A DNA stretch of 37,572 bases, taken from contig JACPNL010000027.1 of assembly GCA_016185505.1 (NCBI GenBank), forward strand, positions 1 through 37,572. Direction: 5' to 3'. The notes under the pieces are model-generated. The model saw only the letters and a program-made list of their open reading frames with translations. It did not search any database and was not told the origin of the DNA. The position numbers and the translations under genes are program-made. Position 1 is the stretch's first letter, and each line of letters begins with the position of its first letter. Shown piece after piece: positions 10,011 through 37,572 of the stretch. This DNA is from Candidatus Yanofskyibacteriota bacterium (GTDB taxonomy: Bacteria; Patescibacteriota; Minisyncoccia; 2-02-FULL-40-12; GWA2-44-9).

Positions 10011-11993
10011 TTATACCAAAAACCTCGCAATCAGCAAAGCTACAATGTTCGCAACTTTTATCATAGGATTTATCGCCGGACCGGCAGTATCTTTGTACGG
10101 GTCGCCCACCGTATCGCCGGTAACCGCGGCTTTGTGGGCCTCGGAACCCTTGCCGCCGTATTGGCCTTCTTCAATGTATTTCTTGGCGTTGTCCCAAGCC
10201 GCTCCGCCCGAGGTCATAGAAATTGCAACAAACAAACCGGTAACTATCACGCCAACGAGAAGCCCCCCCAAAGCTTCCGGTCCAAGGATAAATCCGACCG
10301 CGACAGGAAAAGCGACAGGAATTATTGCCGGTACTATCATTTCTCTCAAAGCCGCTCGGGCAACAATGTCAACTGCTTTGCCATAATCCGGTTTTTCGGT
10401 TCTCTGCATAATGCCTGGCATCTCTCGAAATTGTCTCCTGACCTCGTCAACTATCGCTCCCCCCGCGCGCCCCACCGCTTGCATCGCCAATGAACCGAAA
10501 AGATATGGCATCATTCCGCCGATGAGCAACCCCAGCAGAACTCTGACGTCTGAAAGCACAAATAATACATTATATCCTAAGTCATACAGTTCTTGATTGT
10601 AAGCGGCGAAAAGCACAAGCGCCGCAAGGCCGGCGGAAGCAATGGCATAACCCTTTGTTACGGCTTTTGTCGTGTTGCCAACCGCGTCAAGCGGATCAGT
10701 AACGTCTCTGACCGAATCGGGCAGTCCGGCCATTTCCGCTATGCCGCCGGCATTGTCGGTAATAGGGCCGAACGCGTCTATCGCAACAATAATTCCCGTT
10801 AAAGAAAGCATGCTCATCGTCGCAAGGGCTACTCCGTAAATCCCCCCGAAAATATATGAAAATAATATTCCTCCGCCAATTATAAGTACCGGCCAAGCGG
10901 TTGATTGCATTGATACGGCAAGACCGGTGATTATATTCGTCCCGTGTCCCGTAGTTGATGCTTTGGCAATTGATTTCACGGGACTGAATCTCTTTGAAGT
11001 ATAATAATCAGTCGCCAAAACCATCAGCGCCGTTACGGCGATACCAACAATCAAAGCGCCAAACACATTCAAATTCCCTAAATCAATAATTTGGGACTTT
11101 TCAGCAACCCAATAGAACATCGCGAGCAATATGACAGCGGTTGCCGAAAGTCCTTTGTATAAAGCATTCATTATTTTATCTCCGCTTAATTTTACGAATA
11201 ACGAACCCAGGATTGAGGCAACAACCGCAAAAGAACCAACCAACAGAGGAAACTCAACTATATTTTTAAGTCCGCCGAACATCAGCTCGCCTAAAAGCAT
11301 CACCGATAGAGCTGATACAACATATGTCTCAAATAAATCAGCAGCCATACCGGCATCGTCGCCGACGTTATCCCCCACATTGTCAGCTATCACCGCGGGG
11401 TTGCGAGGGTCGTCTTCCGGAATTCCTACTTCCACTTTACCGACAAGGTCAGCGCCGACGTCGGCGCCTTTGGTAAATATGCCTCCGCCCAAACGCGCGA
11501 ACACAGAAATAAGAGAGGCGCCAAATCCGAGACCGATAAGCGCTTTCACGTCACCCGCCCACCAATAAAAAAGCGTGAGAGACATCAACGCCAGACCAAC
11601 GACAAAAAATCCTGTCACTGCTCCTCCCTTGAAAGCCAAACCGAAAGCGCGAGATAAACCATGCTTTGCCTCCTCGGCCACTCGAACATTGGCCCTTACG
11701 GCAACCATCATACCGATATAACCGGCAAAGGCCGAAGCGATAGCTCCGACAACGAATCCCGTTGCCAACATAGAGCCTAACCAATACCAAAGCACAAAGA
11801 CAGCCGTAAGCCCAACCCAAAATACGGTCTTATTCTGCCGGGCAAGATACGCAGACGCGCCCTCTTGTATCGCTTTTTGAATCTCTCGCATTTTCTCATC
11901 CCCGGTTGGCTTTTTGAGAACCTGCCAAGTTAAAAACGCGCCATATCCCAGCGACGCCATCGACGCCAATAATGAAAATAATAGTATAGACAT
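10011..11993 (-). CDS. hppA: Membrane-bound proton-translocating pyrophosphatase
   Basis: Protein of 660 residues with about 16 membrane segments. Substrate-site motifs are present: [33 protein letters not shown] (key Asp residues), and the late [18 protein letters not shown]. The segment [10 protein letters not shown] has Lys and Thr at the positions that, in the family, mark the K+-independent H+-pumping subclass (K+-dependent forms have Ala at the first). It couples PPi hydrolysis to proton export and so saves energy from biosynthesis, which suits a small fermentative cell. Monocistronic, with weak Shine-Dalgarno. Confidence 0.96.
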
Positions 11994-12069: not shown

Positions 12070-12780
12070 TTATAGTAATTCGGGAAAATCGGAACAAGCG
12101 CCGTCAACACCCATTTCATGAAGTTCCCTTATTCGTCTGGGATCATTGGCCGTCCAGACATTAACCAGCAGTCCTCTGTCATGAGCAATTTTTATGGCTT
12201 CCGGATAAACAGCTGTGTGCTCCGGATGAATGGCAAAGGCCTGCCGCCTAAGCGCTTCCTCTAAAAATACCGGCCAACCCATCTGATTGATCTTGGACTC
12301 TCGGGCCAAAAGCGCAATCGGCGCTTCTCCGCGAAATGTTTTCAATTGATCCCACGAAGAATCCTCGTCCGGATCATTATCGTCAGAATCAAATGCCGAA
12401 ATCAGCACTTGATCCCGCAAACAATAAAATTGGATCATCTTAAGAACATCTTCGGCGATACCGTCTTCCTTGATATGAATATTCAAAAAAGCTCTCGCGG
12501 CAAAATCCGTTAAGACATCCTCCAATAAAGGTATCTTCTCGCCAAAACCAGCATCCAGTTCGGAAAGCTGTCTATAAGTCAGGTCGCAGACATTGCCGGA
12601 GCCGTTGGTCGTCCTTTTAACGGAGAGATTGTGGATAACAACCAGTTTGCCGTCTTTCGTTCTTCGAACGTCAAATTCCAAGGCGTTGGCGCCTTTCCAA
12701 ATGGCCTTTTCAAAAGAAAGTATGGTATTTTCACCGTATCTCGGATTCCCCGGCGCGCCTCGGTGACCGATCTTGAGCAT
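12070..12780 (-). CDS. Glycerophosphodiester phosphodiesterase
   Basis: Protein of 236 residues with the GDPD barrel signatures: IGHRGAPGNPRYGENTILSF (catalytic His-Arg and metal Glu), A-L-E-F-D-V-R-R-T-K-D-G with the metal-binding E-x-D, and V-V-I-H-N for the second His. It ends with VNVWTANDPRRIRELHEMGVDGACSDFPELL-type features (key: W-T-N, G-V-D-G, D-x-P). No signal peptide, so it is cytoplasmic. It would release glycerol 3-phosphate from glycerophosphodiesters, perhaps from scavenged host lipids. Confidence 0.93.
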   Translation of the reverse strand: MLKIGHRGAPGNPRYGENTILSFEKAIWKGANALEFDVRRTKDGKLVVIHNLSVKRTTNGSGNVCDLTYRQLSELDAGFGEKIPLLEDVLTDFAARAFLNIHIKEDGIAEDVLKMIQFYCLRDQVLISAFDSDDNDPDEDSSWDQLKTFRGEAPIALLARESKINQMGWPVFLEEALRRQAFAIHPEHTAVYPEAIKIAHDRGLLVNVWTANDPRRIRELHEMGVDGACSDFPELL

Positions 12781-19282: not shown

Positions 19283-19288
19283 GAATTG

Positions 19289-19361
19289 TGGACCGTGCCG
19301 GACTCGAACCGGCGACACCCTCATTGCAAATGAGGTGCTCTACCAACTGAGCTAACGGCCC
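19289..19361 (-). tRNA. tRNA-Ala(UGC)
   Basis: On the minus strand: acceptor GGGCCGT / ACGGTCC, D arm GCTC..GAGC, anticodon stem-loop CCTCA-TTTGCAA-TGAGG with anticodon TGC, and T arm GCCGG-TTCGAGT-CCGGC. All stems pair, with one G-T pair in the acceptor. The discriminator is A and the next bases are CAA, so CCA is not encoded. Confidence 0.96.
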
Positions 19362-20810: not shown

Positions 20811-20885
20811 TGGTGCGCGTGCTAGGGATCGAACCTAGGACCTTTTCATTATCAGTGAAATGCTCTACCACTGAGCTAGACGCGC
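20811..20885 (-). tRNA. tRNA-Ile(GAU), CCA encoded
   Basis: On the minus strand: acceptor GCGCGTC / CACGCGC (last pair C-C mismatched), D arm GCTC..GAGC, anticodon stem-loop TTTCA-CTGATAA-TGAAA with anticodon GAT, T arm CTAGG-TTCGATC-CCTAG, discriminator A followed by CCA. Unlike the tRNA-Ala in this window, the CCA end is encoded. Confidence 0.95.
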
Positions 20886-21042: not shown

Positions 21043-21051
21043 CAAATTAAA

Positions 21052-21070
21052 AAGGGTCTCACAACCCCTT
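21052..21070 (-). terminator. Terminator after acyl-CoA dehydrogenase gene
   Basis: AAGGGGTTGTGAGACCC hairpin on the minus strand, followed by TTTTTAATTTG. Confidence 0.65.
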
Positions 21071-21073
21071 GTT

Positions 21074-22225
21074 TTATTTGAACAAACTCTTGGCCACAGC
21101 TAATCTCTGCATATCAGAAGTCCCTTCACCGATAATAAGCAGGATGGCATCCATAAGATCCTGCGCGATGCGATTGTCTTTAATATAAGCATTGCCTCCG
21201 AAGGTACGAGCCGCGTCCAAACAGCCAGATAAAACTTTTTCAGTAACATGAAGCTTTGTTTCCGACGCTAACTGAATAGTCAGTTCTCCTTTATCAAAAA
21301 TATGGGCAGATTTTTCAACCATGGCCCAGCAAGCAGTTAAAGTAGCTGACACATCCGCAAGACGATGACTTACTGCCTGATATTCAGAGATAGGCTTACC
21401 GAAAGTTTTTCTTATTTTTCCGTAATTTACTGCTTCTTTTAATGCTGATCTTAACAGCCCGCAGGCAAGAGCTGAAATGCCCACACGCCCGCTGTTAAGA
21501 ACTTTATAGGTACTCGCCCTGCCATCGCCTTCCATTTCTGCGTTAATACCAACCTCAACATTTTCAAAAATAACAGTGGAGGTATCACTCGCATCCATCC
21601 CCACCTTGTTAGTTTCAGCGCTGCATATGAAGCGACCTTCACTGGCTTTTGGCACAATAAATGCGCCATAGTTCTGTTGTCCGTGTTTGTTTGAGAATGT
21701 CTTTGCTATTACAACAAAAATATCCGCAATTGTACCGTTGGTAATAAATTGTTTGGAACCGTTAATAAGCCGGCCGGAGCCAGTCGTTGTTGCCGTTGTC
21801 TTCATTCCAATTCCAAAGGCATCGCTTCCGGCATCAGGCTCGGTTAAGCACCATGCGCCAATTGTTTCACCCTTAGCCAGTTTTGGCAAAAAGGCTTTTT
21901 TCTGTTCCTCGGTACCGGCATAAAGAATATGCGCAATCGCCAAGGAGTGATGGGCTGTCAAAGTCAACGCGATAGAACCCCCGCCGTAACAGGCCAAACT
22001 TTCCATCAAAACCACATATTGTTGCATATTCATTCCTGCCCCGCCATATTCTTCCGGGACCATCGCGCCCAGAAAACCACGCTCCCCCATTTGTTTAAAC
22101 ACCTCGCGGGAGAACTGTTTGGCTTTAACAAATTTTCCATAATCCTTTCTGACCACGTCTTGGCAAAATTCTTTCACTGACTGTTCTATGTGCCGACTAT
22201 CCCCTTCGTGGAAGTAAGTAGCCAT
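21074..22225 (-). CDS. Acyl-CoA dehydrogenase
   Basis: Protein of 383 residues, full length for the family. It shows AWCLTEPDAGSDAFG (FAD/substrate signature), GSKQFITNGTIADIFVV, the KTFGKPISEYQAVSHRLAD arginine-loop region and the catalytic-base region IIGEGTSDMQRL, in which the Glu of EGTS is kept. It would oxidise an acyl-CoA to trans-2-enoyl-CoA and pass electrons to ETF. No ETF gene lies in the window. It is the last of four beta-oxidation genes on this strand and has its own terminator. Confidence 0.95.
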   Translation of the reverse strand: MATYFHEGDSRHIEQSVKEFCQDVVRKDYGKFVKAKQFSREVFKQMGERGFLGAMVPEEYGGAGMNMQQYVVLMESLACYGGGSIALTLTAHHSLAIAHILYAGTEEQKKAFLPKLAKGETIGAWCLTEPDAGSDAFGIGMKTTATTTGSGRLINGSKQFITNGTIADIFVVIAKTFSNKHGQQNYGAFIVPKASEGRFICSAETNKVGMDASDTSTVIFENVEVGINAEMEGDGRASTYKVLNSGRVGISALACGLLRSALKEAVNYGKIRKTFGKPISEYQAVSHRLADVSATLTACWAMVEKSAHIFDKGELTIQLASETKLHVTEKVLSGCLDAARTFGGNAYIKDNRIAQDLMDAILLIIGEGTSDMQRLAVAKSLFK

Positions 22226-22308
22226 ATTCCCTTCTTGTTAATGTCCTTAATCTGGACATAAACTAACAACATTTTTTAATTTTGTCTAGATTAAAAGACA
22301 AAACAAAA

Positions 22309-22326
22309 AGGGGTTAAACAACCCCT
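22309..22326 (-). terminator. Terminator after hydratase-dehydrogenase fusion gene
   Basis: AGGGGTT-GTTT-AACCCCT hairpin followed by TTTTTG on the minus strand. Confidence 0.75.
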
Positions 22327-22334
22327 AGTAAAAA

Positions 22335-24446
22335 TCATATCAAACGAGATGTGATAAATTCTTTTCCAAGAAATAAAACTTGAACTTCACTTGTTCCTTC
22401 AAAAACTCTGAAAACAACAATGTCGCGCTGAAGCATTTCAATCGGGAAATCCGCGATGAATCTATTCCCGCCATGAAGCTGACCTGCTCTGTCAATAACA
22501 TTAAAAGCTGTCTCGGCAGCAAAATATTTGACTGCCGCGGCTTCACTACGCACATCAAGACCCCGGTCAAGTTTCCAAGCAGCATCTAAAACCATATTTT
22601 CAACCGCAAGTAGCTTGGCCCGCATCTCGCCAAATTCTCTCACGGTATTTTGGTGTTCATATAACATTTTTCCAAAAAGCCGGCGGTCTTTGGCATAATT
22701 CCACGCCTCGTCAATTGCCCGCCGCATCATACCGATACAACTTGCCGCAACAGTAATTCTGGAGTGGTTGAATATTTTCATTGTAGCCTTAAAGCCCTTC
22801 TTTTTCCCGTCGCTGCCATCCGCCAAAACATCGGCCTCTGGAACAAAAATATCGTCAAGCGCAAAACTATTCGTTCGTGAAGCATGAATACCCATTTTCT
22901 CTTCCCGCTTAGTAATGGCGAACCCCTTGGAGCCCGTATCCACGATAAATAAACTTAATGTCTTCTGTCCGCCGTCAGGATCAGTTTGGGCGGTAACAAT
23001 TACAAAGTCGGCTATCTCGCCATTGGTGATAAATTGCTTGGATCCTCTAAGCCGCCAGCCGCCCTCAACTTTTTTTGCCATCGTTGAAATATTTGCGATA
23101 TCCGAGCCAATCCCCGGTTCAGTAGTGGCAAAAGCACCGATCTTTTTACCTTCAATAACAGGGATCAGGTATCTTTGTTTTTGATCTTCGTTGCCAAACA
23201 AATAGACCGCTTCCCCGGCTAAACTTGAAGAAGCGCCCATAACTACCGCTGTCGCCGGATGATAATAAGCTAATTCGTCAGCCAAAACACAAACACCAAC
23301 TTTGCCTAATCCAAAACCGCCAACACTCTCCGGAAAACCTGCCCCAAATAAGCCAAGTTCCGCCATTTTACCCAAAAGCTCTTTTGTCACCGTCTCGGTC
23401 TTTTCCATTTGACGAACTTTAGACCAAGTTAACTCTTGCTCGGCAAATTCCCGAATTGTTTGGCGAAGCATTTTATACTCTTCTTTTTCCCACGGCGGAA
23501 CTTCGGCATTTTGGACAACAGTTTCTGTCTTTTGAGCAGAACTTTCTTGACTGCCAACAACCATACTGAAGGAAGGTTTGCGTTTTTGCAGAAACGACGA
23601 AAGTCCTTCCAGCGCATCCGAGGTAAAAAGACAGTTAAGCAGTGCCGGTAACTCCACATCTGACCATGCCTCGGGCATGGGCAATTTTAGTCCTTCGTTA
23701 ACCACACTATTGATCAGATAAGCGGCAAAAGAGGGTTGCTCTTTGGCAAAAGAATTAAAATCTTCACGGCTAATACCCTTAAAGTCCGGTCTTGGGTCAT
23801 TTCTGTCGGCAGACATTTTGACTTCGCTGTTCAAAACCCTATTAACAAACCCGATCACCCCTTTATTAAAATCCTCATCAGCCACAAGTTCGTCCACTAA
23901 ACCAATTGAATACGCGACCTCGGCGTTTATAGCCGCCGACTTGCCGCCTAGGAGCATTTTCAGGGCCAAACGAGGTTCGATGCGCCTTGGTAACCTTTGA
24001 GTCGCGCCTAAACCCGGAATAATACCGTAGTCCACTTCGGGACAAGCAAATGAAATTGTCTGCGAGTCCGACGGCACCACAATAAAGTTGCATGCCAGAG
24101 CCAGCTCAAGGCCACCGCCAAAACAAAAACCATTAACAGCCGCAATAACCGGTTTCTCGCCGCCACTCATCAGGTCAAAATTGCCGTGAAGGGCTTTAAG
24201 CAGTTTTTCTACGGCGCTTCTGTCTCCTGATTTAGCCATGGCAGAAATAAGCTTGATATCTACGCCGGCTGAAAAAGCGAGGCCCTCGCTTTTGACAACA
24301 ACGGCCTTAACCGACTCGTTGTGATAAAGCGGTTTAAAATACTTTTCAAATCCTTCAAGCATTTCTCTCGTCAAAAAATTAAACGGTGGATTTGAGAACT
24401 TAATAACTCCAATATTCCCCACAATTCCAGAAACAACTTCGGCCAT
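22335..24446 (-). CDS. Enoyl-CoA hydratase / acyl-CoA dehydrogenase fusion
   Basis: Protein of 703 residues. Residues 1-about 265 are a crotonase domain: AFSAGVDIKLIS and NGFCFGGGLELALACNF form the oxyanion hole, and CPEVDYGIIPGLGATQRLPR holds one catalytic Glu. The position of the second Glu of true hydratases reads Lys (LALKMLLGG). A linker of about 50 residues follows. Residues about 320-703 are a full acyl-CoA dehydrogenase: FATTEPGIGSDIANIST, GSKQFITNGEIADFV, RRLFGKMLYEHQ and VFRVFEGTSEVQ with the catalytic Glu. The frame is continuous with no stop or shift. I know of no standard enzyme with this order. It could carry two successive beta-oxidation steps in one chain. Confidence 0.92.
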   Translation of the reverse strand: MAEVVSGIVGNIGVIKFSNPPFNFLTREMLEGFEKYFKPLYHNESVKAVVVKSEGLAFSAGVDIKLISAMAKSGDRSAVEKLLKALHGNFDLMSGGEKPVIAAVNGFCFGGGLELALACNFIVVPSDSQTISFACPEVDYGIIPGLGATQRLPRRIEPRLALKMLLGGKSAAINAEVAYSIGLVDELVADEDFNKGVIGFVNRVLNSEVKMSADRNDPRPDFKGISREDFNSFAKEQPSFAAYLINSVVNEGLKLPMPEAWSDVELPALLNCLFTSDALEGLSSFLQKRKPSFSMVVGSQESSAQKTETVVQNAEVPPWEKEEYKMLRQTIREFAEQELTWSKVRQMEKTETVTKELLGKMAELGLFGAGFPESVGGFGLGKVGVCVLADELAYYHPATAVVMGASSSLAGEAVYLFGNEDQKQRYLIPVIEGKKIGAFATTEPGIGSDIANISTMAKKVEGGWRLRGSKQFITNGEIADFVIVTAQTDPDGGQKTLSLFIVDTGSKGFAITKREEKMGIHASRTNSFALDDIFVPEADVLADGSDGKKKGFKATMKIFNHSRITVAASCIGMMRRAIDEAWNYAKDRRLFGKMLYEHQNTVREFGEMRAKLLAVENMVLDAAWKLDRGLDVRSEAAAVKYFAAETAFNVIDRAGQLHGGNRFIADFPIEMLQRDIVVFRVFEGTSEVQVLFLGKEFITSRLI

Positions 24447-24532
24447 TTTCGAACTCCGATTGTCAAGTTACTTGCTGTTTATATACAACAAACCGATTGG
24501 AGAGTCAACACATAGAAAATAACGCCTAAAAC

Positions 24533-24556
24533 AAAAACGGCAAAAGCCGTTTTTTA
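24533..24556 (-). terminator. Terminator after 3-hydroxyacyl-CoA dehydrogenase gene
   Basis: AAAACGGC-TTTT-GCCGTTTTTG hairpin with U-run on the minus strand; it overlaps the gene's stop codon. Confidence 0.8.
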
Positions 24557-25759
24557 CAACAATATTTCATAGAATTTCTCACCTCTAACCGCCATATCCA
24601 CAAGCATCTGTGCCGGTTTGAATCTTGGCCCATAAATTTGAACATAGCCATTCAACTGCTTGACGAGAGTTGAAGCTCCAAGCTTGCTAATATGATGCAA
24701 GGGGCCGTCCTTTGGAAAACCGATGCCGATTTTTGCCCCGGTTTCAATTTCGTTTTTAGACGTAACGCCGTCCTGAAGAGCCTGAACCGACTCGTTCAAA
24801 AATCTAGCCGTCATTCTTTCAAAAACCTTTTGGGCGGAAACTATTGGCCGCGAACCGTAAATCCTCTGAAGAAAAGCGTTCAGGGGTTCGTGGCCGCCTT
24901 TCATGTCATAAAAACCGACACCGGCTTTTTCACCCAAACGACCGGCATCAACCAACGCCTTGAACAAGGTCCCAAGCTGTATCTTCTCCGGATATGCCCG
25001 AGACAAGAATTCGGCAACAAGATACGCTGTATCCAGACCAACCACATCCAATACTCCGAACGGTCCCATCGGCCAGCCGAAATTTCTCGCTTCAGCATCA
25101 ATAGCTTCAAACGAAACGTCACTCTGCTCAAGAGCCATAACGGCCTCGCCCAGATACGGTAGCAATAGACAATTGACCAGAAAACCGAACCGATCCTTGA
25201 CGCGTATAGTCTTCTTTCCTAAAGTAGCTCTGGAGAATTTCTCAACCGTATCCATTGTGTCGCTGGAAGTACTGCCTCCACGAACCAATTCCACTAACAT
25301 CCTCTGATTACTGGTTGGAGGATTGAAAAAATGCATACCCACAACTTTATCCGGGCGCTTTGTTGCCCTGGCAATTTCAGTAATCGGCAAAGAAGAAGTA
25401 TTGGACGCGAGAATTACATGCTCCGGCATAATTCTGTCCAGTTCGAAAAACAACTCCTTTTTCCATTCCATGTTTTCGGGGATAGCTTCAATAATCAAAT
25501 CGGTATTAACCAGATCCTGAATACTATAAGTTACGGTCAAATAAGATTTCTGCTGATCAAGGACACTCCGTTCCTTTGTATAGCCTAGATCAAACCATTT
25601 CTGAAAACGATCGTGAAGGCTTTTCTCTACTTTTTGGGCTAACTCCGGACTTTCTTCCTTTAGAACTACTGGCCGATTACAACGAATAGTCAAGGCTGTA
25701 ATGCCGCCGCCCATCGTTCCACCGCCAACGACGCCAACTGTACGAATAGCATAACCCAT
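24554..25759 (-). CDS. 3-hydroxyacyl-CoA dehydrogenase
   Basis: Protein of 401 residues. The NAD-binding GVVGGGTMGGGI is at 9-20. The catalytic region has SNTSSLPITEIA and HFFNPPTSNQRMLVE. Two C-terminal helical domains follow (GFLVNCLLLPYLGEA...; KAGVGFYD; then a second copy from RFLNESVQALQDG). Having both C-terminal domains is like the dehydrogenase half of FadB, whose hydratase half is here in a separate fused protein. It makes 3-ketoacyl-CoA from 3-hydroxyacyl-CoA. Confidence 0.95.
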   Translation of the reverse strand: MGYAIRTVGVVGGGTMGGGITALTIRCNRPVVLKEESPELAQKVEKSLHDRFQKWFDLGYTKERSVLDQQKSYLTVTYSIQDLVNTDLIIEAIPENMEWKKELFFELDRIMPEHVILASNTSSLPITEIARATKRPDKVVGMHFFNPPTSNQRMLVELVRGGSTSSDTMDTVEKFSRATLGKKTIRVKDRFGFLVNCLLLPYLGEAVMALEQSDVSFEAIDAEARNFGWPMGPFGVLDVVGLDTAYLVAEFLSRAYPEKIQLGTLFKALVDAGRLGEKAGVGFYDMKGGHEPLNAFLQRIYGSRPIVSAQKVFERMTARFLNESVQALQDGVTSKNEIETGAKIGIGFPKDGPLHHISKLGASTLVKQLNGYVQIYGPRFKPAQMLVDMAVRGEKFYEILL

Positions 25760-25809
25760 TGAAATACTCCTAATTTCAAGCTACTGCCGATAACTTACAG
25801 AAAATAAAA

Positions 25810-25831
25810 AAGACAGTCAAATGACTGTCTT
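25810..25831 (-). terminator. Terminator after thiolase gene
   Basis: AAGACAGTC-ATTT-GACTGTCTT hairpin, followed by TTTTTATTTT on the minus strand. The stem touches the stop codon. Confidence 0.8.
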
Positions 25832-27092
25832 AAACAAACCTTTTTATAACAAGTGCTATCCCTTGGCCATTGCCGACACAGAGCGAGACCAAACCATAAT
25901 CCTTTTTGAAATCATGAAGTATATGGATAAGGGTTGTAAGCAATTTTGCGCCGGATGTTCCGACCGGATGGCCAAGAGCAACCGCCCCGCCTCGAATGTT
26001 TAATCTATCGCCAGGAATTTGGAAATGTTTTTTTGTCGCCAAAACTACTCCGGCAAAGGCCTCATTAATTTCAAAAAAATCGATCTGACCTTCGGTCAAT
26101 CCGGCCATTTTGAGGGCCTTGGGAATTGCCCAGATAGGACCTTCGCCCATATGAGACGGATCACCGGCCGCTTTACCGTAACCAAGGATTTCTGCTTCAA
26201 GTGTAACTCCCAGTTCCAGGGCTCTCTCAAGTTCCATAACCAGAAAGCTGGCCGCGCCGTCATTGACCGTACAGCTATTAGCCGGAGTGATAGTGCCGTC
26301 TTTTTTAAAATAAGATTTTAAAGTAGCCAGTTTACTAACCGTAAGAGTGGGATTTGGACCTTCGTCTTCATAAATCTCACTTTCCCTAATATCTCCCAAC
26401 ATTCCTTTTTCAATTGATTTAACGGGCACAATTTCTGTTTCAAATTTACCGGAAGAAATGGCCTCGTAAGCTCGCGTGTGGGATTCAACGGCAAAAAGAT
26501 CTTGCTCTTCTCTCGAAACTCCATACTTCTCAACTGTATTTTCCGCAATCCGGCCCATCAATTCACCGGTTAAAGGGTCTCGCAAACCGTGAACAAGAGA
26601 ATCTTCAAGCAATGAGTCTCTCATCTTAGAACCGGACCCACGCTCCAAGAGCATTGGTGAATTAGACATACTTTCCGTTCCACCAACTAGAACCACTCTG
26701 GAATCGCCTGCAACAATTTCATGGACTGCCGAGATAACCGCTTGAACGCCGGAACCACAGTTAAAACTTGGGGTAAAGGCGGTAATATTTCTTGCTCTAG
26801 ATTTTTCTACAACTTCCTCCTTCAGATATTCGCCTTTGTTATAAGTATCGACCGCGTCATCGGGTAAACCAGCTAAAAGTATCGCTACCCGAGCCACATT
26901 CATCGCATTTGGAGAATGGACACAAGTACTGGCTACAACACTATCAATGTTCTCTATTTGGATTCCGGCTTTTTCAAGACTTCCCTTAAAACAAGTTCTC
27001 AATAATTCCTGAGCTTTAACGCTCTTTAGCCGGCCAGCAAACCTACCTACCGGCGTGCGGCAAGAACCAGAAATGACTATTCTTTTATTCAT
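25830..27092 (-). CDS. Acetyl-CoA acyltransferase (thiolase)
   Basis: The ATG at 27090-27092 (MNKRIVISGSCRTPVGRFAG) is chosen, with GGAAGGGTAAG upstream; the 42 residues before it in the frame have no family match. The 420-residue product has the nucleophile Cys in FNCGSGVQAV, NEAFAGVVL, the His in GGAVALGHPVGTSGAK and the acid Cys in LCVGNGQGIA. Between LLAGLPDDAV and the Cys there are about 20 extra residues (TYNKGEYLKEEVVEKSRARN). It cleaves 3-ketoacyl-CoA, or condenses acetyl-CoA in the other direction. First gene of the beta-oxidation block. Confidence 0.94.
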   Translation of the reverse strand: MNKRIVISGSCRTPVGRFAGRLKSVKAQELLRTCFKGSLEKAGIQIENIDSVVASTCVHSPNAMNVARVAILLAGLPDDAVDTYNKGEYLKEEVVEKSRARNITAFTPSFNCGSGVQAVISAVHEIVAGDSRVVLVGGTESMSNSPMLLERGSGSKMRDSLLEDSLVHGLRDPLTGELMGRIAENTVEKYGVSREEQDLFAVESHTRAYEAISSGKFETEIVPVKSIEKGMLGDIRESEIYEDEGPNPTLTVSKLATLKSYFKKDGTITPANSCTVNDGAASFLVMELERALELGVTLEAEILGYGKAAGDPSHMGEGPIWAIPKALKMAGLTEGQIDFFEINEAFAGVVLATKKHFQIPGDRLNIRGGAVALGHPVGTSGAKLLTTLIHILHDFKKDYGLVSLCVGNGQGIALVIKRFV

Positions 27093-27242
27093 CTTACCCT
27101 TCCAATTTTCAAAGAAATTAACCTTAACATAGACGTGAATAAACAGGTTGTCAAGTTTCAGTTCGGGTAAGCAAACTCCCGCCAGGAAGTGAATTTTTGA
27201 GCTACGGTCTAACCGCAAAAGCAGAGTTAACTCAAAAATCTC

Positions 27243-27280: not shown

Positions 27281-27832
27281 ATGCCTAATGCTCAAGAATT
27301 ACAACATGTGCATACGGCTTTAAAGAAAAAATTCTCAAATAGAAAATTGATTTTCGGAAGGGGTTCTATTGGCTCAAAAATCGTTATCGTTACCGATCAC
27401 CCCGGAGCTGAAGGAGCAAAAGAAGGAAAACCCATCGCCGGAAACAACCAAAAACTGATTAATAAATTGCTTCGTTCCGCAGGCGTAGAACCAAATAAAG
27501 TTTACATCACCAACGTCATCAAATACCACCCTGAAAACAAAAAACCCACACCGAAAGAGATCAAATCATACGTTCCATTTCTCAAGGAAGAGATAAAAAC
27601 GGTGGGGCCGAAAGTAGTAGTCACTTTGGGTGACATAGCCCTCAACGGGATTGGTTTAAGGCAACCGCTTCATAACATCCACGGCAGGCCGTTCAACTTC
27701 GGCAGTTACACTCTGCTGGCCACTTTCCACCCCGAAACGGCGGCCAAAGACCCGGAAATTCATACGCTCCTGGCAACAGACATCTCGAAGATCAAAAAGA
27801 TAGTAGCTGAATCGGATAAAGAACAAGCATAA
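27281..27832 (+). CDS. Uracil-DNA glycosylase superfamily protein, cysteine-free
   Basis: Protein of 183 residues resembling family 4/5 UDGs. Motif 1 reads VIVTDHPGAEGAKEGKPIAG (where family 4 has GEAPG-x-x-E-D-x-x-G-x-P-F). YITNVIKYHPENKKPTPKEI matches the YITNVVKC.P.....P segment. VVVTLGDIAL and the late LLATFHPETA match the LG and HP motifs. It contains no cysteine at all, so the 4Fe-4S cluster of families 4 and 5 is absent. Base excision of uracil is likely but substrate is unproven. Confidence 0.82.
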   Translation: MPNAQELQHVHTALKKKFSNRKLIFGRGSIGSKIVIVTDHPGAEGAKEGKPIAGNNQKLINKLLRSAGVEPNKVYITNVIKYHPENKKPTPKEIKSYVPFLKEEIKTVGPKVVVTLGDIALNGIGLRQPLHNIHGRPFNFGSYTLLATFHPETAAKDPEIHTLLATDISKIKKIVAESDKEQA

Positions 27833-36402: not shown

Positions 36403-37080
36403 CATGTTTCTCCACATATCGCTACATGGCACGGACTATATCATCACCCCGATTTAAATCGGGGGGTCGGCGTGTAGTCTCTGAGGGGACTAAATGTGTA
36501 ACTGACTAGCTAATTGCTTAGCTTTGAGGAATCCTTCAGGCCCTATATGTTCTTTTCTTTCTTTCATTTTAGCAATTTCGACAAATTTCTCAAACGCTTT
36601 TACTTTCTTAGGAAGTTTCAATCGATATCTTTGAAAAAACGGTATTATGACTTTAAATATTGATTCGGTATCAGCCACTTGAAAACGCAATTGGTCTGAA
36701 AATTTCTCTCTTTTTTCTTTTTTTAGACTGATATTACCGCAACCAAACCAATCTCTCAAGTCATATAAGATTCTTCCATCAATAACGTTGAGATCAATTC
36801 CAAACACCATTCTTACATCGTGACAATTCCAACCTCGGGATTTATTTATTCTAGCGCTTACTGAAAAATAACCCTCTCCGTCGGCAAGACCCACAATATA
36901 ATCTGGGGTTAACTTCACATTTAGTCTTCCCTGCTGATTGACTGCACTAGAAGCTTTGTTACTTAAAGACATAATCAAATTATATCATAAAAGTAGCTCT
37001 AGATACACAGTGTTTCCAGCAAACAGCCAACTTTTTTTATCAAGATTACTCTTGACAAGTCGCAACGTCTTTTTAGACCA
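36403..37080 (-). mobile_element. Group I intron in 16S rRNA at E. coli position 1498/1499
   Basis: The 5' exon ends AAGTCGT (37087-37081). The intron contains GCGACTT (37063-37057), which pairs with it to form P1 with the required terminal U-G pair. The intron ends in G (36403) before AACAAGG. R-like (TCAGAGACTACACG, 36484-36471) and S-like (GATATAGTCCGTG, 36443-36429) elements can form P7, with a CCCCGATTTAAATCGGGG P8 hairpin between. It is 678 bases long and carries a homing endonuclease gene. Confidence 0.9.
36490..36972 (-). CDS. LAGLIDADG homing endonuclease (intron-encoded)
   Basis: The ATG at 36970-36972 (TATAAT about 10 bases upstream) is preferred to the TTG six bases earlier. The 160-residue product has one LAGLIDADG motif (IVGLADGEGYFSVS, about residues 26-39) and a later half with FRVQVADTESIFKVIIPFF-like features and a basic C-terminus. 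A single motif implies a homodimer cutting a near-palindromic target in intronless 16S genes. It lies wholly within the intron, between P-helices. Confidence 0.93.
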   Translation of the reverse strand: MSLSNKASSAVNQQGRLNVKLTPDYIVGLADGEGYFSVSARINKSRGWNCHDVRMVFGIDLNVIDGRILYDLRDWFGCGNISLKKEKREKFSDQLRFQVADTESIFKVIIPFFQRYRLKLPKKVKAFEKFVEIAKMKERKEHIGPEGFLKAKQLASQLHI

Positions 37081-37502
37081 ACGACTTATCCCGTGTCACC
37101 GATCTTACCGTAGCTCCACATAAAAACGCGGATCTTTGGGTATTACCGGCTCCCCTGGATTGACGGGCAGTGAGTCCAAAATTCGAGAACGTATTCACCG
37201 CAGCATTCTGATCTGCGATTACTAGCAATTCCGGCTTCATGGAGGCAAGTTGCAGCCTCCAATCCGAACTGGGGACGCTTTTGATGGGATTAGCTCCGCC
37301 TCGCGGCTTGGCAACCCATTGTAACGTCCATTGTATCATGTGTGTAGCCCAGGGCATCAGAGGGCCACGCTGACTTAACGTCATCCCCACCTTCCTCTCC
37401 GTTACCGAAGCAGTCCTGCCTGACAAATATAACAGACGGTAGGGGTTGCGCTCGTTAATTCACTTAAGAAAACCATTCACATGACGAGCTGACGACCGTA
37501 TG

Positions 37503-37572
37503 CTTCCACTATTACTAATGGTACGGACTATACTTTCATCCTATTAATTCTACATTCTCAATAGGAGCCAAC
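37503..37572 (-). mobile_element. 3' end of a second group I intron in 16S rRNA (near E. coli 1053), partial
   Basis: On the minus strand, 16S sequence resumes at CATACGGTCGTCAGCTCG (from 37502). The sequence before it does not match 16S but contains GATGAAAGTATAGTCCGTACC (as GATGAAAGTATAG + TCCGTACC, 37541-37521), an S-like element nearly identical in form to that of the first intron, and it ends in G at 37503. The rest lies outside the window. Confidence 0.75.

Follow-up and report, generated by a model that had tools for sequence, protein, structure and literature searches.

The window, by which we mean the whole 37,572-nucleotide stretch of DNA analysed, contains a block of beta-oxidation genes that is native to a CPR genome. 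On balance, the block probably works as a module for acyl-CoA beta-oxidation in a lineage of Yanofskybacteria-like Paceibacteria, with electrons passing to an acceptor other than ETF, the standard electron carrier of beta-oxidation acyl-CoA dehydrogenases (ACADs).

Gene content of the block

The block comprises four intact genes, all on the minus strand, which encode a thiolase, a 3-hydroxyacyl-CoA dehydrogenase (HCDH), an enoyl-CoA hydratase-ACAD (ECH-ACAD) fusion and a second, stand-alone ACAD, giving two ACAD domains. An earlier note on this DNA had placed four beta-oxidation enzymes together here, with active-site residues mostly intact; strong Pfam matches at the positions in Table 1 confirm the assignment, and catalytic residues are kept. 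The mechanical thiolase reading frame reaches a TTG at 27218, and the gene is taken here from its ATG. The thiolase scores 381.8 bits against NCBIfam TIGR01930 (cutoff 240.6), and its catalytic Cys/His/Cys are present (motifs NCGSG, NEAF, GHP and CVGNGQG). HCDH retains its catalytic Asn/His/Glu motifs and aligns to FadJ positions 308-707, corresponding to the C-terminal half of FadJ without the hydratase. The promoter-like sites and terminator-like hairpins of the region show no excess over shuffles.

Table 1 Features of the beta-oxidation block and its borders, in window positions
Feature	Position	Strand	Basis
Terminator-like hairpin after small ACAD	21051..21070	-	
tRNA-Ile(GAU), one border of conserved slot	20811..20885	-	ARAGORN
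Second ACAD, stand-alone, 383 aa	21074..22225	-	Pfam N, M and C domains, E down to 3e-30
Terminator-like hairpin in the gap from fusion to small ACAD	22309..22326	-	
ECH-ACAD fusion, bifunctional, 703 aa	22335..24446	-	Pfam
ACAD module of fusion, residues 322-697	22356..23483	-	Pfam ACAD domains at residues 322-695, E 1e-40
Flexible linker of fusion, residues 290-314	23505..23579	-	pLDDT <50 at 290-314
Hydratase (crotonase-fold) module of fusion, residues 1-290	23577..24446	-	Pfam ECH_1 at residues 10-207, E 3e-37
HCDH, 401 aa	24554..25759	-	Pfam 3HCDH_N 1e-50 and two 3HCDH stretches
Terminator-like hairpin, end of thiolase gene	25810..25831	-	9-bp stem, then T-run
Thiolase (acetyl-CoA C-acyltransferase)	25830..27092	-	ATG start; Pfam Thiolase_N 1e-64, Thiolase_C 3e-42
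Promoter-like site, TTGACA-17-TATGTT, upstream of thiolase	27126..27154	-	10/12 consensus match only
Family-4-like uracil-DNA glycosylase, other slot border	27281..27832	+	Pfam UDG

The hydratase-dehydrogenase fusion described previously is real, with the qualification that the partner is an ACAD and not an HCDH as in FadB and FadJ. A FadB-type fusion is ruled out by the domain order, the hydratase being joined to the ACAD while HCDH is separate. Both domains are folded in the AlphaFold2 model (mean pLDDT 88.9). Full-length fused homologues occur in 7 other genomes of the order (32-45% identity to the window fusion), hence in 8 of 45, and E114 and E137 of the hydratase and E683 of the ACAD are invariant in all eight fused proteins. 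A scan of named genomes covering 80 loci detected an in-frame ECH-ACAD fusion only in a Ca. Yanofskybacteria. Sequence, model and fold matches agree that the ACAD module has the dehydrogenase fold and the catalytic Glu. Its best PDB sequence matches are the ETF-partnered enzymes 5ol2_C and 6fah_C. Glu515, which by-eye alignment equates with MCAD Glu212, is invariant in the fusions, and the small ACAD has Thr at this site; the comparison carries no claim, since the ETF-docking pocket differs even among true ETF partners. The small ACAD groups with that of G034 (98) and then with the ACAD of the ETF-bearing genome G082 (96).

Locus and distribution across the order

The source genome is that of a CPR bacterium, as had been supposed: it is 681 kb, has a split transketolase, and its relatives include Ca. 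Yanofskybacteria JACPAB010000006.1. Completeness is 95%, with contamination of 0.83%. The segment is native CPR DNA, because in many relatives this slot, bounded by tRNA-Ile and the uracil-DNA glycosylase gene, is likewise occupied by beta-oxidation cassettes; the glycosylase gene adjoins them in nine further genomes of the family. The rarity of beta-oxidation among CPR might suggest a chimeric bin, with the segment drawn from a non-CPR genome, as the earlier note had considered. Against this, the flanking genes are of CPR type, the slot and tRNAs are conserved in relatives, the fusion is seen only here and contamination is low. We give a chimera virtually no credence, as synteny across independent genomes rules it out.

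Across the order, sampled as 45 genomes (the source genome and 44 relatives), ACADs occur in 21, compared with two among the roughly 378 CPR genomes sampled outside it. The latter count supports the view that CPR mostly lack beta-oxidation. For the closest pair of relatives (G023 and G027), dN is 0.17-0.20 and dS 1.8-2.3, the latter near saturation, with dN/dS ~0.1; related gene copies thus evolve under purifying selection. This ratio, together with the intact domains and motifs, supports the beta-oxidation reading.

The cassettes vary in composition. In G004 the ACAD half of the fusion is replaced by a Bacillus-FadE type with the hydratase half retained; that the fusion is kept regardless, and the cassette kept in one slot, argues for a functional module. 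In G031 the fusion clade is represented solely by a stand-alone ACAD, and no degraded hydratase was found beside it. Other cassettes in the slot are FadE- and FadJ-like, and the cutoff of the Bacillus FadE model NF058590 is exceeded in G013 (in the slot) and G034 (elsewhere). Bacillus FadE itself functions alongside ETF. It resembles the same-slot G013 type and the G004 ACAD half, whereas those of the window have shorter sequences and fall in different clades. Matches to PF00109 in six genomes of the order are weak and do not represent a fatty-acid synthase, those of G023, G006 and G032 being the thiolases themselves by coordinates; no ketoacyl synthase was found in the order beyond such cross-matches, a point in favour of the beta-oxidation reading.

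Electron acceptor and acyl-CoA activation

None of the 45 genomes has an ETF domain (PF01012), a heme-copper oxidase, a bd oxidase, a PF01144 CoA-transferase or an ADP-forming acyl-CoA synthetase. The PF01012 search does find ETF in two other CPR genomes (G082 and G208) and in 10 of 14 controls. Assembly gaps are rejected as the cause of a missed ETF, given 0/45 genomes, and poor sensitivity is unlikely as the search recovers both CPR ETFs. The occurrence of ACADs in 21/45 genomes and ETF in 0/45, with the same search positive elsewhere, further supports the beta-oxidation reading. At least four ACAD lineages occur in ETF-less genomes. An EtfD-like iron-sulfur protein (640 aa, two CCG and 4Fe-4S domains) is present in G015 and G034, and absent from the source genome and 43/45 genomes overall. 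These proteins resemble the membrane iron-sulfur oxidoreductases EtfD/EMO/FadF, although there is no ETF to feed them. Ten neighbours of ACADs, taken from other genomes, reveal no shared electron carrier; they comprise glutamate dehydrogenase, SecD, an M50 protease, NAMPT, NUDIX, FtsX, a sugar transferase, DUF5671 and uncharacterised proteins.

The earlier note found no ETF or acyl-CoA synthetase in the window; this holds, and both ETF and acyl-CoA ligase are also absent from the 95%-complete source genome, as judged from protein-family searches and sequence stretches. The activation search there covered PF00501, PF13607 and PF01144, all absent. Judged as a beta-oxidation spiral, the genome supplies ACAD, hydratase, HCDH and thiolase with their catalytic residues, and lacks the ETF acceptor and an activation enzyme of these three families. 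Elsewhere in the order, AMP-forming acyl-CoA ligase (PF00501) was found in 13/21 genomes with ACAD vs 3/24 without (Fisher p 0.0014, taking genomes without regard to shared ancestry), and in G006 the ligase lies inside the cassette. Together these point to free-acid activation and breakdown. Lack of an electron acceptor had been named as evidence against the pathway, and every known acceptor family tested is indeed missing, ETF across the whole order. Conservation of the genes despite this points to a new acceptor rather than to no function.

Discussion

In the proposed scheme, the ACAD half of the fusion would oxidise acyl-CoA from scavenged fatty acids to 2-enoyl-CoA, the small ACAD doing the same, probably for another chain length. 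The tethered hydratase would then add water, the separate HCDH would oxidise 3-hydroxyacyl-CoA with NAD+, and thiolase would release acetyl-CoA. The covalent ECH-ACAD link may raise the local enoyl-CoA concentration at the hydratase and so draw the ACAD reaction towards its product. The flavin, once reduced, could be re-oxidised by a non-ETF carrier, or by oxygen directly. The absence from the source genome of an AMP- or ADP-forming ligase, a PF01144 CoA-transferase and any known acceptor weighs against this reading. So do the nearest solved ACADs, which are ETF partners, two of them clostridial and studied for the reductive direction, and the ~5% of the genome that is missing.

The cassette could instead run in reverse, lengthening acetyl-CoA to acyl-CoA for NADH disposal or to make lipid chains without fatty-acid synthesis. 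The order's lack of a ketoacyl synthase, the missing ligase, the clostridial Bcd and CarC among the nearest ACAD relatives, and acryloyl-CoA reductase as best NCBIfam ACAD model (at a score far under cutoff) are consistent with this. We nevertheless consider it unlikely: the ACAD step would need an electron donor, which is ETF in known cases and equally absent, and ligase co-occurrence favours breakdown. Furthermore, 24 of the 45 genomes lack ACAD and likewise ketoacyl synthase, so that the cassette is not the order's lipid source. Alternatively, the two ACADs may have narrow specificity and serve to degrade a particular CoA ester, be it branched, dicarboxylic or derived from an amino acid, instead of ordinary fatty acids; this would suit a genome without fatty-acyl ligase. 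ACAD substrates are not readable from sequence, and the best match of the small ACAD, Thermus 1ws9, has a record naming no substrate. Such a specialised route is quite unlikely, as accessory genes for it are missing from the cassettes and the other same-slot cassettes are FadE- and FadJ-like.

The ACADs might also need no carrier, either reacting with oxygen as oxidases or shuttling hydrogen between acyl- and enoyl-CoA in a redox-neutral manner, as the missing ETF and terminal oxidases and the diversity of ACAD lineages in ETF-less genomes would allow. Sequence and fold matches of the ACADs are to dehydrogenases first, with no acyl-CoA oxidase among the best 50 fold matches listed, and Pfam ACOX_C_alpha1 scores 24.1 bits on the small ACAD, below its 27-bit cutoff; we regard this alternative, too, as unlikely. 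It overlaps the beta-oxidation reading, in which the acceptor is left open. A pathway without visible input or output, and the retention in G031 of the stand-alone ACAD only, could indicate a non-functional remnant being lost, but four intact frames, kept catalytic residues and the low dN/dS in relatives make this very improbable.

Freshwater CPR have no reported beta-oxidation (PMC9166423), and CPR have been characterised as incapable of fatty-acid synthesis or oxidation, their handling of lipids being an open question (PMC9166423, PMC12281837). A CPR precedent for the block exists in Ca. Parcunitrobacter nitroensis. Its genome likewise has co-located ACADs, hydratases, HCDH and thiolases, and differs in having an ETF beside these genes, AMP- and ADP-forming acyl-CoA synthetases and a respiratory chain; the part of its description used here mentions no ECH-ACAD fusion (PMC5220378). 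FadB and FadJ also fuse the hydratase to a cycle partner, there HCDH and here ACAD. Bcd/CarC/AcrC, to which the closest solved relatives of the fusion's ACAD module belong, form complexes with EtfAB, in contrast to the ETF-less order.

About half of the order thus appears to oxidise fats by a non-ETF electron route. More tentatively, the order may use the bifunctional hydratase-ACAD with an acceptor of a new kind in place of ETF, to which several unrelated ACADs were recruited. Nearly half of the sampled genomes in one CPR order have ACADs, under selection where tested and without their usual carrier, and the ECH-ACAD architecture was not met elsewhere in the scan. This implies either a new route for ACAD electrons or a pathway other than textbook beta-oxidation.

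A native beta-oxidation cassette with a fused hydratase and dehydrogenase

The minus strand of the window carries four intact genes separated by 70-109 bases, encoding a thiolase, a 3-hydroxyacyl-CoA dehydrogenase (HCDH), a 703-aa enoyl-CoA hydratase–acyl-CoA dehydrogenase (ECH–ACAD) fusion and a stand-alone 383-aa ACAD; they stand where an earlier note placed the block. In contrast to FadB/FadJ, the hydratase is joined to an ACAD; a gene of its own encodes the HCDH, whose sequence aligns with the latter half of FadJ. The thiolase, fusion and small ACAD genes are each followed by a terminator-like hairpin, although such hairpins are in no excess over shuffled sequence in the cassette region.

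Active sites, which the earlier note judged mostly intact, are well preserved. All eight fused proteins share hydratase Glu114 and Glu137 as well as ACAD Glu683, and the catalytic motifs of thiolase and HCDH are retained in the window and in relatives with this cassette type. For the closest relative pair (G023 and G027), all three genes give dN of 0.17-0.20 and dS of 1.8-2.3, the latter near saturation. AlphaFold2 models both fusion modules with high confidence (mean pLDDT 88.9), joined by a disordered linker (residues 290-314); the top PDB folds belong to butyryl- and medium-chain acyl-CoA dehydrogenases and related enzymes.

The genome (681 kb) is 95% complete. Beta-oxidation genes directly adjoin the same uracil-DNA glycosylase (UDG) gene, followed by a split transketolase, in 10 genomes of the family (G000, G005, G006, G007, G012, G013, G014, G015, G022 and G023). 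The opposite border is tRNA-Ile(GAU), then tRNA-Ala, in 8 of these (exceptions G006 and G012). G031 and G037, from a different family of the order, carry their beta-oxidation genes in this neighbourhood too, at a distance of a few kb. A chimera with a non-CPR genome, raised in the earlier note, is excluded by this shared neighbourhood and by contamination of 0.83%.

The 16S rRNA 3' end, tRNA-Ile and tRNA-Ala of the window are arranged and oriented as in a bacterial rRNA operon, yet are spaced across 18 kb; the slot between tRNA-Ile and UDG sits within this dispersed operon, and the window contains no 23S rRNA. A LAGLIDADG endonuclease ORF immediately follows the 16S rRNA 3' end.

Coordinates of features in the window and in loci (L) of other genomes
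Feature	Location	Strand	Remark
16S rRNA 3' end	window 37055-37572	-	
LAGLIDADG endonuclease ORF	window 36490-36978	-	
Beta-oxidation cassette	window 21074-27092	-	
tRNA-Ile	window 20811-20885	-	
tRNA-Ala	window 19288-19361	-	
Glycerophosphodiester phosphodiesterase	window 12070-12780	-	near slot
H+-translocating pyrophosphatase	window 10011-11993	-	near slot; conserved nearby in relatives
Thiolase–HCDH fusion	L035:4693-7185	+	G007; 830 aa
HCDH–ECH fusion	L045:4735-6648	-	dehydrogenase first
HCDH–ECH fusion	L147:4002-6014	+	dehydrogenase first
EtfD/FadF-like protein	L141:7627-9540	-	two CCG, 4Fe-4S, hydrophobic N-terminus
EtfD/FadF-like protein	L142:7152-9089	+	two CCG, 4Fe-4S, hydrophobic N-terminus
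ACAD	L145:8313-9542	-	G394

Slot cargo and history of the fusion

Three cassette types occupy the slot across the family: thiolase–HCDH–ECH–ACAD (window, G023, G015, G007), a single Bacillus-FadE-like ACAD (G012, G013, G014, G022), and long ACADs accompanied by thiolases and FadJ-like fusions (G005, G006), in one case with an internal AMP-forming ligase. Within the genus, flanking UDG genes are 81-83% identical to that of the window, yet G014 carries a FadE-like ACAD and the G015 fusion is just 38-39% identical. Hence, judging from these comparisons, cassettes appear to be exchanged in place. The fusion also occurs outside the slot in G027 and G042.

A single-frame ECH–ACAD fusion is present in 8/45 genomes of the order. 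A scan of GTDB species genomes (at least 80 loci) found both modules in one frame only at the Yanofskybacteria locus, among 80 loci listed. In quick trees, with SH-aLRT as the sole support measure, the fused hydratases form one clade (98), as do the ACAD halves (99) except that of G004. The latter groups with Bacillus-type FadE (96-100), whereas its hydratase neighbours that of G015, so the ACAD half was swapped and the hydratase link retained. This argues that the tether is useful in itself. Several genomes of the order encode HCDH–ECH fusions with module order opposite to bacterial FadB/FadJ.

Electron carrier and substrate entry

ACADs pass electrons to ETF. The earlier note saw no ETF in the window, and whole-genome searches extend this to the entire genome and to 0/45 genomes of the order, 21 of which encode ACAD (G035 gives a hydratase match only). 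The identical search was positive in two CPR genomes outside the order (G082, G208), each with ACAD domains nearby; 2 of ~378 sampled CPR genomes outside the order passed the ACAD search, which missed the G208 copy. At least four ACAD lineages (fusion, FadE, long and small types) occur in ETF-less genomes, thus the lack is systematic. Domain searches of the order also found neither heme-copper oxidase nor cytochrome bd. A 640-aa EtfD/FadF-like iron-sulfur protein occurs only in G015 and G034, both without ETF. An ACAD without any ETF match also occurs in G394, which belongs to a different CPR lineage.

Neither AMP-forming ligase nor ADP-forming acyl-CoA synthetase was found in the window's genome, matching the earlier observation for the window, nor was a CoA-transferase of PF01144, the one such family covered. 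Across the order, AMP-forming ligases track ACAD (13/21 versus 3/24 genomes without ACAD; Fisher p 0.0014, shared ancestry ignored), which favours breakdown of free acids. No convincing ketoacyl synthase match was seen in the order. The H+-translocating pyrophosphatase near the slot could consume PPi released by acyl activation; a glycerophosphodiester phosphodiesterase is also close by.

Ca. Parcunitrobacter nitroensis combines CPR beta-oxidation with an adjoining ETF and a respiratory chain (PMC5220378), in contrast to the ETF-less window genome and order. A parasitic lifestyle on Methanothrix is described for a Ca. Yanofskybacteria (PMC9600506). A search of open-access literature found no paper describing an ECH–ACAD fusion, nor one on CPR beta-oxidation that runs without ETF.

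Proposed mechanism

The cassette most likely works as an ACAD–hydratase–HCDH–thiolase cycle. Acyl-CoA would be oxidised by ACAD, the enoyl-CoA taken up by the tethered hydratase, NADH produced by HCDH and acetyl-CoA released by thiolase, with the ACAD flavin re-oxidised without ETF. The data establish which genes are present, that they are intact and native, and which families are absent; we infer direction, substrate, channelling and acceptor. In G007, which has a thiolase–HCDH fusion as well as ECH–ACAD, the whole cycle of four activities resides in two proteins.
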